Shown here in pieces: positions 34,192 to 37,393 of a DNA stretch of 37,393 nucleotides. Position numbers and translations under genes: made by a program. Location of the stretch: positions 1 through 37,393 of IMG/VR virus record IMGVR_UViG_3300033553_000509; one strand, given 5' to 3'. Each line of letters opens with the position of its first letter. Position 1 is the stretch's first letter. The notes below the pieces were generated by a model. It did no database searches and was not told the origin of the DNA. It worked only from the letters and a program-made list of their open reading frames with translations. Origin of the DNA: a virus.

Positions 34192-34280
34192 GCCCAACGC
34201 AGAGCTAACCGGGCGCGGCTCGGAAAGCTGAAAAACAACACCGCATTATAACCGCGCTCCGGTTGAGCGCAGGGTTAGAT
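34192..34280 (+). repeat. attC: attC-like integron recombination site 1
   Basis: Ends are GCCCAAC (fits RYYYAAC, 34192-34198) and GTTAGAT (fits GTTRRRY, 34274-34280). Internal arms AACCGG-GCGCGG (34207-34218) and CCGCGC-T-CCGGTT (34252-34264) pair over 12 bp with T34258 left unpaired, the extrahelical base expected in attC. The loop is about 33 bases. It lies one base after a stop codon and is followed by GGAG and a short gene. Confidence 0.8.
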
Positions 34281-34294
34281 ACTGGAGACAAAAA

Positions 34295-34489
34295 ATGACA
34301 GAATTTGAACAGGGTGTACTTTACGCAGCAGCACTTGTGGTTGCATTGCGCGATGAACCCGTAATAGCAGCGTCAATAATACGCGAAGCTGGTCTTGCTA
34401 ACGCCGATATAAGCAGTCTTGATGGAATTGACCAACGCAATTTGATGAAACTTATCGGCGAAAAGGGAATTAATTTTCGCGGTGTCTAA
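34295..34489 (+). CDS. Cassette-like gene, 64 aa
   Basis: The gene starts 15 bases after an attC-like site with a CTGGAGA ribosome site, the normal spacing for an integron gene cassette. The protein (LYAAALVVALRDEPVIAASI, then IREAGLANADI) is small and helical, with no recognised domain. Its stop lies inside GTGTCTAACGC, a sequence fitting the first box of an attC, but the rest of that site is missing and the integrase start copy follows. Confidence 0.6.
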   Translation: MTEFEQGVLYAAALVVALRDEPVIAASIIREAGLANADISSLDGIDQRNLMKLIGEKGINFRGV

Positions 34490-34503
34490 CGCAATATATA
34501 CGA

Positions 34504-34576
34504 CAATGAAAAAACCCGGCCGTAAACGCTTCAGCAAAAACATCCCGGCGCACATCGATGCCGCCAAGCTGCCAGA
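34504..34576 (+). repeat. Duplicated integrase 5' end, left copy
   Basis: These 73 bases match 35186-35258 with two changes. The right copy is the start of the integrase gene; this copy provides the ATG and first 24 codons of a different gene. The two copies bracket a 609-base AT-rich insertion. Confidence 0.9.
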
Positions 34577-34802
34577 GCATATTGATGATGGGAAATGCGA
34601 TTGTCTAAATTATTACGGGGATGATCCAAGAATTGAGAAAGGGATTGTTGAAGCTTGTCCCAGTTTAAAAGCTGATTTTAAAAGACGAGAAGAACATAAA
34701 GTTTTCTTAAAATCAGTAGATTATTTAGTAATAGATGCAAAGTTGTCTGGATCAGTTACTTTAACATATGACCAAATATCAAAGATTAGAAAATATTTAT
34801 GA
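34506..34802 (+). CDS. Chimera: integrase N-terminus fused to unknown protein
   Basis: The first 23-24 residues (MKKPGRKRFSKNIPAHIDAA) equal the integrase start. The remaining 75 (HIDDGKCDCLNYYGDDPRIE, then KADFKRREEHKVFLKSVDYL) are unrelated and AT-rich in DNA. The gene appears to borrow the integrase start codon and ribosome site. It overlaps the next gene by four bases, so the pair forms a unit. The function of the foreign part is unknown; a two-gene defence or toxin-antitoxin unit is possible by context only. Confidence 0.6.
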   Translation: MKKPGRKRFSKNIPAHIDAAKLPEHIDDGKCDCLNYYGDDPRIEKGIVEACPSLKADFKRREEHKVFLKSVDYLVIDAKLSGSVTLTYDQISKIRKYL

Positions 34803-35191
34803 GTCAAATTAAACATCCAATAGACTACAGTTCACACCTAAAAGAAGTAATGGCTGAAATAAAGGCAGTTTTGAAAAAACATGATATCGCCGCTTATATT
34901 TTGCTTCAAAAGCCTGGATTTAGCGAATATCTGATAGCAATTGAACCAACTTGGTCAATATTGAGAATTGAAAAAAACGGCATCCGTATTCGCTCCAAAT
35001 TGGCCGATGATTTTGCTGGCGATATAGATGCAAAACACAAAGCTGATGAAAGTACGGCATCACTTGTCCGACATTTCGCAGACATACTCAAACGTGATGC
35101 TAAGCTTTTTGAAGATATTCACTCAATATTGCTAGAGCATTGGAAAATTACCCATACTGCGGGAACTCATACACCTCATCGGCCCCAATGA
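34799..35191 (+). CDS. Unknown AT-rich gene before the integrase, 130 aa
   Basis: The protein (SSHLKEVMAEIKAVLKKHDI, then AIEPTWSILRIEKNGIRIRS) has no recognised domain; it reads as an alpha/beta core with a helical end (LVRHFADILKRDAKLFEDIH). Its stop codon TGA is formed by the integrase ATGA, so the last bases come from the 73-bp repeat. GC content is clearly lower than that of the integrase. It is coupled to the chimeric gene upstream and to the integrase downstream. Confidence 0.65.
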   Translation: MSQIKHPIDYSSHLKEVMAEIKAVLKKHDIAAYILLQKPGFSEYLIAIEPTWSILRIEKNGIRIRSKLADDFAGDIDAKHKADESTASLVRHFADILKRDAKLFEDIHSILLEHWKITHTAGTHTPHRPQ

Positions 35192-35258
35192 AAAAACCCG
35201 GACGTAAACGCTTCAGCAAGAACATCCCGGCGCACATCGATGCCGCCAAGCTGCCAGA
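35186..35258 (+). repeat. Duplicated integrase 5' end, right copy
   Basis: This copy contains the true integrase start (ATG 35188). It differs from 34504-34576 at two positions, both silent or conservative in coding terms. The small divergence suggests the two copies came from related but not identical phages, or that the duplication is not recent. Confidence 0.9.
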
Positions 35259-36303
35259 TCGCGTCTGGTTTAATGTCTCGGGATCAGGCAAATGGATGCT
35301 CAATTACTACGATGAAACCGGCAAGCGTTTAACCCGAAGGCTTTGCGGCCCGGATGCCAAGCTTGCGGAAATCTGGCAGGCCGTCGAAGCTAACCAGGTC
35401 AAGACCATCGCCACTTTCGCCACGCTGTCAGCCGAATTCCAGCAAACCCACCAATGGCACAAACTCAGCCCGCTGACGCAAAAGGATTATTTATTCTGCC
35501 GCCAGGCCATCATCACCCGCGACACCACCAACGGCAAACTGGGCGACGTGCCGCTGAGCCAATGGACGATCGGCCTGATCAGGAAGTACAGGGACAAGCG
35601 GGCGGAAGATTCCGAATCCAGAGCCAACAAGGAATTGAGTTACATCAAGCGGGTGTTCTCATGGGGCTATGAATACGAAAAAATTAGCGTCAACCCGGCC
35701 GCCGGCATAAAAAAGATTGCTCTGCCGCCGCGACAGCATTACGCCGAGGATCGGGATTATTACTTTATGCTGAATGTCGCCAGGCAAAGCGGTTATTACT
35801 ACGTATATCATGCGATGGAACTGGCTTTTCTTTGCCGGATGAGGCTTTGTGAAGTGTTGGCACTGAACGACGCCCAGGAACTTGAAAACGGGCTTTTGAT
35901 AAAACGGAGGAAGGGCAGCCGGACCAATATTGCCGAATGGAATGACCGTCTGCGCACAATCTGGGACGATTTGAAGCAAAAACGCGCGGCAATCCTCCAG
36001 GATCGCCGCCAGCCATCGCCAATCCGGGCGGAAGACCGCTATCTGTTTGTTAGCGAACATACCGGAGACCGGATAAACGAGCATACCTTCAAGACCGCCT
36101 GGCAGCGGGTCATGAAACAGGCGGAAGAACAAGCAGCAAAAGATGGCGTGGAATTTACAAGGTTTACTTTCCACGATTTGAAGAAGAAGTCGATATCGGA
36201 TTTTAACGGCGACAAAATGGCCGCATCAGGACACAGGACTCAGGCAATGGTTAATCTGTATGATTTGAGTATTGCTGTCGTACCACCTACAAGAGATAAA
36301 TGA
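35188..36303 (+). CDS. int: Tyrosine site-specific integrase
   Basis: The 371-residue recombinase carries an N-terminal arm-binding part, a core-binding SAM-like domain (TFATLSAEFQQTHQWHKLSP) and a catalytic domain with Arg in AFLCRMRLCEVLAL, His in FTFHDLKKKSISDF, a second His in ASGHRTQAMVNLYDLS and the nucleophile Tyr in NLYDLS. The usual second Arg of His-x-x-Arg is Lys here (HDLK), a variant I know from one phage integrase group that ends in 'Y-x-V-P'. It integrates the phage at tRNA-His. Start ATG 35188 overlaps the upstream stop (ATGA). attR lies 0.6 kb downstream. Confidence 0.93.
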   Translation: MKKPGRKRFSKNIPAHIDAAKLPDRVWFNVSGSGKWMLNYYDETGKRLTRRLCGPDAKLAEIWQAVEANQVKTIATFATLSAEFQQTHQWHKLSPLTQKDYLFCRQAIITRDTTNGKLGDVPLSQWTIGLIRKYRDKRAEDSESRANKELSYIKRVFSWGYEYEKISVNPAAGIKKIALPPRQHYAEDRDYYFMLNVARQSGYYYVYHAMELAFLCRMRLCEVLALNDAQELENGLLIKRRKGSRTNIAEWNDRLRTIWDDLKQKRAAILQDRRQPSPIRAEDRYLFVSEHTGDRINEHTFKTAWQRVMKQAEEQAAKDGVEFTRFTFHDLKKKSISDFNGDKMAASGHRTQAMVNLYDLSIAVVPPTRDK

Positions 36304-36307
36304 AAAT

Positions 36308-36463
36308 ATGAAATTGACATTATTAAACAGACTAAAACTGTGTTTTGAGATACTTACAGCAAGAAGCGGACATGCTCATACTGCACAAGAAAAAATGTTA
36401 TCAACTTTTCTTCGCGGATATGAGGCAGGCATGAAAGACGCGCGGTTTAATATTGATTTATAA
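36308..36463 (+). CDS. Small cassette-like protein, 51 aa
   Basis: Start at ATG 36308, five bases after the integrase stop. The protein (LTLLNRLKLCFEILTARSGH, then STFLRGYEAGMKDARF) is a short helical protein of a type often found in phage accessory regions and gene cassettes. Its stop codon lies inside the first box of an attC-like site, as is typical for cassettes. Function unknown. Confidence 0.6.
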   Translation: MKLTLLNRLKLCFEILTARSGHAHTAQEKMLSTFLRGYEAGMKDARFNIDL

Positions 36464-36554
36464 CGCCGTGTTAAGCGGAAAGCCGCCCGGCACGGAACTT
36501 TGAAAACACGAAATGCTTAATGGGCGGCTTGTCCGCTTGAACTAAGAGTTAGAC
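36458..36554 (+). repeat. attC: attC-like integron recombination site 2
   Basis: The right box GTTAGAC (36548-36554) fits GTTRRRY; the left box TTATAAC (36458-36464) fits RYYYAAC only in part. Internal arms AAGCGGA-A-AGCCGCCC (36473-36488) and GGGCGGCT-TG-TCCGCTT (36522-36538) pair over 15 bp with an asymmetric bulge. The loop is about 33 bases. The stop of the preceding gene is inside the left box, and GGAG plus a short gene follow the right box. Confidence 0.7.
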
Positions 36555-36798: not shown

Positions 36799-36847
36799 GT
36801 GTCTAACGCATGATATATGACAAAATCTAATCACATTAGGACTATTA

Positions 36848-36912: not shown

Positions 36913-36960
36913 AATGGGGTGAACGACGGGGCTCGAACCCGCGACAACAGGAATCACAAT
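36913..36960. repeat. attR: attR core in the tRNA-His 3' part
   Basis: Identical to 319-366. It covers the tRNA from CCA through the T arm and into the anticodon stem. The intact tRNA continues beyond 36960, so integration restored the gene. Confidence 0.95.
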
Positions 36961-36991
36961 CCTGCACTCTACCAACTGAGCTACGCTCACC
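36915..36991 (-). tRNA. tRNA-His (GTG)
   Basis: The 77-nt transcript has an eight-base acceptor pairing that includes the His-specific extra G-1 opposite C73, anticodon loop TTGTGAT (anticodon GTG) and an encoded CCA. It is the last gene of the Pro-Arg-His operon and the phage insertion target. Confidence 0.97.
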
Positions 36992-37252: not shown

Positions 37253-37281
37253 TTGTTTTTTATGCTGTGTTAGCGCAAAAT

Positions 37282-37393
37282 AGTAATGTCCGCTTTCTCC
37301 CAAATAGAAATGTCCGCTTGTGATTAAATTCACCCCTTGTTAATACAAGGTGGATATTTTGGAAATGAAAAAGCTGATGAGTCAGAAAGAAGC
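37282..37393 (+). mobile_element. Start of an insertion sequence, cut by window end
   Basis: AATGTCCGCTT occurs at 37285-37295 and again at 37309-37319, a double-repeat end I associate with ISNCY-type elements. A short open frame follows from ATG 37365 (MKKLMSQKEA) with an in-frame GTG a little upstream, like the N-terminus of such transposases. Only 29 coding bases are visible, so the family call is tentative. Confidence 0.45.

Follow-up and report, generated by a model that had tools for sequence, protein, structure and literature searches.

Integrons are viewed mainly as bacterial devices, and the locus described here raises the question of whether a phage can carry genuine integron recombination sites and, if so, which enzyme could work them. 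The DNA analyzed (the window, 37,393 nucleotides of IMG/VR virus record IMGVR_UViG_3300033553_000509) contains terminase, portal, head protease, major head, tape-measure, and tail genes, and its bacterial side is 88% identical to contigs of Methylobacter and other Methylococcales. Judging from sequence alone, we identify the phage in the window as a prophage of a methane-eating bacterium (a Methylococcales host). The prophage is likely integrated at tRNA-His; in two related phages, L022 and L023, the 3' part of this gene is found again downstream of int, from which we infer that it is the phage attachment site. An Rfam search of the window returned tRNAs only, and blastn against annotated phages gave matches mainly to tRNA genes. 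Just outside the prophage, AAATAGWAATGTCCGCTT occurs in two tandem copies (37278-37319), possibly an insertion sequence end.

The attC sites and their direction

A preliminary description of the window had proposed that two hairpins, one on each side of the phage integrase, are attC sites. The boxes, arms, bulges, stop codons, and downstream GGAG-ATG on which the proposal rested are all present (Table 1). Both sites have the R''/R' boxes (RYYYAAC and GTTRRRY), paired inner arms, and the bulged base that define attC, with the left box of attC-2, TTATAAC, matching at five of the seven positions. When boxes and arms were scored by a finder, no strict site other than these two came up in the window, and 300 dinucleotide shuffles yielded none. 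In addition, a covariance model (R1) was trained on 34 attC sites, none from phage, taken from arrays adjoining IntI genes in Methylococcales genomes. The R1 helices are well supported, with 91.8% of cells paired as compared to 25 to 45% when the partners were slid. Over the whole 37-kb window R1 matched exactly two places, attC-1 and attC-2, both on the minus strand and both far above chance, and thus the absence of any attC-model hit, which would have refuted the proposal, was not encountered. attC-1 is matched in 47 of 151 Methylococcales genomes, where the best-matching host attC sites are 90 to 95% identical to it, with 94 to 95% at the top, and one attC-1-like site in the Methylobacter genome G004 sits in an array beside IntI (L036). 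Because of the covariance model, the identity to host sites, and the context (attI-like cores and arrays in relatives, see below), we assign both hairpins as genuine integron recombination sites.

The direction of the sites had been read from the plus strand, and here the preliminary description has to be corrected. With filters off, R1 gave plus-strand scores of 12.5 and 14.6 bits at the two sites, and the minus strand scores 30 to 43 bits higher. Two further features, the bulged base and the R' box found at each end, fit the minus-strand direction; under the bulge rule, the extra base is located in the left arm when host attC sites are read in the direction leading away from IntI. The rule, which is set by the host arrays, fixes a direction opposite to that of the genes, and a plus-strand orientation is therefore ruled out. 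In this orientation the bottom strand of attC, the one that IntI recombines in folded form, corresponds to the plus strand of the window.

The two attC sites are 2.2 kb apart with int between them, as had been described. The search for an integron integrase (TIGR02249) gave no match in the window, again as described, so that the intI required of a complete integron is missing. The window meets the definition of a CALIN, namely at least two attC sites close together without intI, and departs from a typical cassette array, in which genes run in the same direction as attC, in that its genes run opposite to both sites. Read on the minus strand, the order is attI-2, cassette gene 2, attC-2, the 51-aa ORF, int, attI-1, cassette gene 1, and attC-1. 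No credible homologue of cassette gene 2 was found in 151 host genomes. As a separate observation, the first 24 codons of int are present twice (34504-34576 and 35186-35258, 97%), flanking ∼610 bp of AT-rich DNA with two ORFs, and the int reading frame is complete despite this insertion.

Table 1 Features of the cassette region and the adjoining tRNA gene (window positions)
Feature	Position	Strand	Remarks
xis, phage excisionase	33724..33936	+	phrog_1266, E 4e-10; left flank of cassette region
Small ORF, 79 aa	33951..34190	+	Stop codon just before attC-1 box; possibly a further cassette gene
attC-1	34192..34280	-	R1 55.5 bits, E 5e-11
Cassette gene 1, 64 aa	34295..34489	+	GGAG before ATG; stop TAA inside recombination box; antiparallel to attC-1
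attI-1-like core	34482..34506	-	Minus strand TTGTCGTATATATTGCG^TTAGACAC
Duplicated first 24 int codons fused to AT-rich ORF	34506..34802	+	73-bp direct repeat, 97% identity
AT-rich ORF, 130 aa	34799..35191	+	Between the two int-start copies; no Pfam or PHROG match
int, phage integrase (tyrosine recombinase)	35188..36303	+	phrog_1, E 4e-36; no TIGR02249 match, so not an integron integrase
Small ORF, 51 aa	36308..36463	+	Stop TAA inside attC-2 box
attC-2	36458..36554	-	R1 44.5 bits, E 1.9e-8
Cassette gene 2, 76 aa	36568..36798	+	GGAG upstream; antiparallel to attC-2; weak phrog_660 match, E 2e-7
attI-2-like core	36799..36823	-	Minus strand TTGTCATATATCATGCG^TTAGACAC; 88% identical to attI-1, same motif class
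tRNA-His	36915..36990	-	3' part likely the phage attachment site

Landing sites and arrays in other viruses

Two attI-like cores, which the preliminary description had not noticed, are located at the 3' ends of the two small cassette genes and form a 25-bp repeat (D3) with the minus-strand consensus TTGTCrTATATnnTGCG^TTAGAC. The core TGTCGTATATATTACGTTAG is found 136 to 138 bp upstream of intI, where attI belongs, in seven Methylococcales genomes. The core pattern, with one mismatch allowed, occurs at 39 places in 26 of 311 Methylococcales genomes, as compared to one place for the reversed control pattern. The window cores therefore fulfil what is expected of attI in that a crossover core adjoins the first cassette and is of the sequence type that lies beside intI in hosts. 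The upstream direct repeats of host attI are absent from both window cores, for which reason we name them attI-like cores only and regard their efficiency as uncertain, and a model of 21 host attI sites gave no score on either. Still, the presence of attI-like landing sites makes the unit more than loose attC sites. The host attI core was also seen away from any nearby intI in many Methylococcales genomes (L185, L189, L192, and others) as stray copies, some beside a gene.

The 21-site model matches the int-proximal array end, in the correct direction, in the related virus records G003 (E 1.6e-5) and G002 (E 0.004), and likewise the array ends of contigs G161, G163, and G168. The weaker of these matches rest on position as much as on score; that of G003 to the host model is longer than the bare cores of the window. 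From these matches we deduce that the attI types of related phages differ from that of the window but likewise belong to the same hosts. An exact scan of the viral contigs for the D3 repeat found nothing.

attC arrays recur at the same locus. Among virus records with relatives of the window integrase, G003 carries six attC sites between xis and int, G002 three, and the truncated G001 one, and none of the three has an integron integrase (TIGR02249). In G165, whose terminase is 70% identical to that of the window, a diverged integrase is closely followed downstream by eight attC sites. Siphovirus relatives therefore have one to eight sites at the xis-int junction or just past int, with different genes between them, which removes the second objection that had been foreseen, that the sequences are ordinary intergenic DNA conserved in many phages. 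In relatives L024, L025, and L026, xis and int are adjacent without an array, and 16 virus records with related terminases contain no attC; because of the latter, we consider the cassette modules accessory. Cargo with a family match includes a Dam-type methyltransferase, an N6/N4 methyltransferase, a phosphoadenosine-phosphosulfate-reductase-like protein, an RNA ligase, a dATP/dGTP-hydrolase-like protein, and an HNH endonuclease. The xis-int gap was also seen filled in int relatives without attC, with a DHH-phosphoesterase-like ORF (L092 5914-7000) or with PAPS-reductase-like and Dam-like ORFs (L094 4064-6890), as judged by eye, and appears for this reason to be a general cargo spot.

Arrays are not confined to siphoviruses. 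Five contigs unrelated to the window phage (G157, G159, G160, G161, and G164), labeled podovirus-like from their gene order and sizes, also have attC arrays, and no relative of the window integrase was found in them. It should be noted that the viral sequences are metagenome contigs without isolates, mostly found through one attC subtype, and do not give a frequency among phages. No near-identical phage pair differing by one cassette was found, a scan with the xis protein gave no relatives, and the GTTAGAYACTGGAGA-ATG pattern occurred in 19 viral records, none of them a recognizable relative.

Gene direction and cassettes common to phages and hosts

Without exception, the bulge rule gave a direction leading away from IntI in host integrons, and gene direction can be stated relative to attC. 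Direction was scored from cassette-filling ORFs and from ORFs that stop inside the box; the longest ORF between sites judged direction poorly. Cassette-filling genes in viral arrays run opposite to attC in 19 cases and in the same direction in 4, whereas a first set of host arrays gave 9 opposite and 55 same (Fisher 5e-9 versus viral). A second host set, chosen by similarity to attC-1, gave 4 opposite and 49 same, for 13:105 over both host sets. Genes with a stop codon inside the recombination box divide in the same manner (viral, 15 opposite and 0 same; host, 4 opposite and 22 same), and every family-matched viral cassette gene runs opposite to its own attC. Arrays of these methanotroph viruses thus nearly always carry their genes reversed as compared to bacterial integrons. 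We also considered that reversal is a trait of the attC-1 subtype, which is ruled out by the normal polarity (49:4) of the hosts picked by attC-1 similarity.

One exception, the viral-labeled contig G156 (L044 8535-10399), was found through attI and has a full attI and normal polarity downstream of antirepressor-like genes. The gene upstream of its cassettes also runs in the cassette direction, which by inference fits with cassette genes following the direction of phage transcription.

The minority of reversed genes in host arrays is where homologues of viral cassettes were found. Among the 118 direction-scored host cassettes, homologues in viral arrays were detected for 4 of the 13 reversed (L134 5591-5905, L134 493-972, L098 3424-3623, and L140 5157-5398) and for 0 of the 105 normal cassettes (p 9e-5). 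The clearest shared cassette, in a G004 array, encodes a 94-aa protein with 78 to 82% identity to the products of cassettes on the viral contigs G162 and G166. Cassettes are also common to unrelated viral arrays, for example those of G003 and G160. The best reading of these homologies is that a reversed cassette pool is exchanged between phages and host integrons, although the direction of transfer is not shown.

Proposed mechanism, alternatives, and known systems

Our current hypothesis, which we consider highly probable, is that these phages carry integron platforms that lack an integrase, are worked in trans by host IntI, and exchange a reversed cassette pool with host integrons. The prophage would carry two one-cassette modules flanking phage int, each with an attI-like core, a gene, and an attC on the minus strand. 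The IntI would be supplied by the Methylococcales host, the attI and attC of which match the phage sites; IntI scores over the family cut-off in 85 of 151 Methylococcales genomes and is present in the Methylobacter genome G004, the tRNA region of which is 88% identical to that of the window. Once phage DNA becomes single-stranded in a host that has IntI, the enzyme could bind the folded attC strands and recombine them with phage attI or with other attC sites, by which genes would be gained, lost, or shuffled. Since the genes have the direction of the phage operon (xis to int), opposite to that of attC, expression is presumed to come from phage transcription and not from an integron promoter. 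Phage cassettes may then enter host integrons with their reversed orientation kept. What was observed is the identity of the sites, the match of attI, the arrays of relatives, the bias in polarity, and the reversed cassettes common to phages and hosts; the action of IntI on phage DNA and expression from phage promoters are inferred, and no recombination was observed. The involvement of host IntI is inferred from the site identity, the presence of IntI in hosts, and the shared cassettes. The suggestion that phage DNA carries and could spread integron cassettes is largely supported: site identity and arrays with different genes in relatives support the carriage, and recombination remains an inference. 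A more specific version, in which the phages keep a separate reversed pool on host-derived attI that is loaded by host IntI, expressed by the phage, and leaks into host integrons, is favored with less assurance.

Alternatively, a piece of a host integron, with real attC and attI, could have been gained by ordinary recombination and now be unused. The window attI sites being cores only, the partial duplication of int beside attI-1, the lack of an integron integrase, and the single cassette per module would all fit with such a relic. Against a relic stand the intact boxes and arms of the window sites, the recurrence at this locus in relatives, and also in unrelated phages, of arrays that have as many as eight sites and differ in their genes, and the cassettes common to host and viral arrays. 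We regard this explanation as unlikely. It could also be that the phage's own tyrosine recombinase moves the cassettes, as the siphovirus arrays adjoin int. This is very improbable, given that Int falls among ordinary phage integrases without an integron-integrase match, that its attachment site is the tRNA-His end, and that several array-bearing contigs have no match to the window integrase family. Lastly, the small phage genes could be separated merely by chance hairpins, terminators, or attenuators, and the folding of attC-1 does exceed that of shuffled sequence only modestly (z -1.7), as compared to z -4.4 for the plus strand of attC-2. This reading can be dismissed with near certainty, being refuted by the E-values of an attC model trained on host sites only, by the absence of the box and bulge pattern from the shuffles, and by near-identical copies in host integrons.

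If host IntI does act in trans as proposed, a phage group with host-type landing sites, and with cassette arrays inside its lysogeny module or next to it, would turn phages into habitual users of the host gene-capture machine. Viral origin of a cassette would then show in its polarity in any integron dataset, and would help account for the reversed minority of cassettes in bacterial arrays.

Phage-borne attC arrays are already known, having been first reported in 2023 as sporadic cases of CALINs, that is, attC clusters without an integron integrase (Qi et al. 2023, PMC9892861), and of six phage attC sites tested in that study, five were recombined by IntI1 (PMC9892861). What appears to be new is the reversed polarity, the presence of host-type attI at phage int, and the signature of exchange; no report of reversed phage cassettes was found in the open-licence literature, which is not proof of absence. 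The phage CALINs (PMC9892861) resemble the window group in being phage-borne attC arrays without intI and in having methyltransferase cargo, and differ from it in that here a host-type attI or core lies at the array end and the arrays are found repeatedly next to phage int in one group of siphoviruses. In the published phage TJE1 (PMC9892861) the genes and attC run in the same direction, whereas here they are opposite. The Shewanella prophage M16-3 likewise combines a CALIN with an attI of its own, but it also has an intact intI, and the prophage is described as inactive (Qi et al. 2023, PMC9892861). Integrons of Treponema, in which intI faces the array, also have an unusual direction (PMC3607928). 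The element reoriented in that case is the integrase gene, whereas here, without intI, genes are turned relative to their own attC. Also close are the sedentary chromosomal integrons of Methylococcales (L036, L095-L114), which have the same attC subtypes and attI types and share the reversed cassettes with the phage arrays, but which, unlike them, encode IntI and carry genes predominantly (105:13) in the direction of attC.
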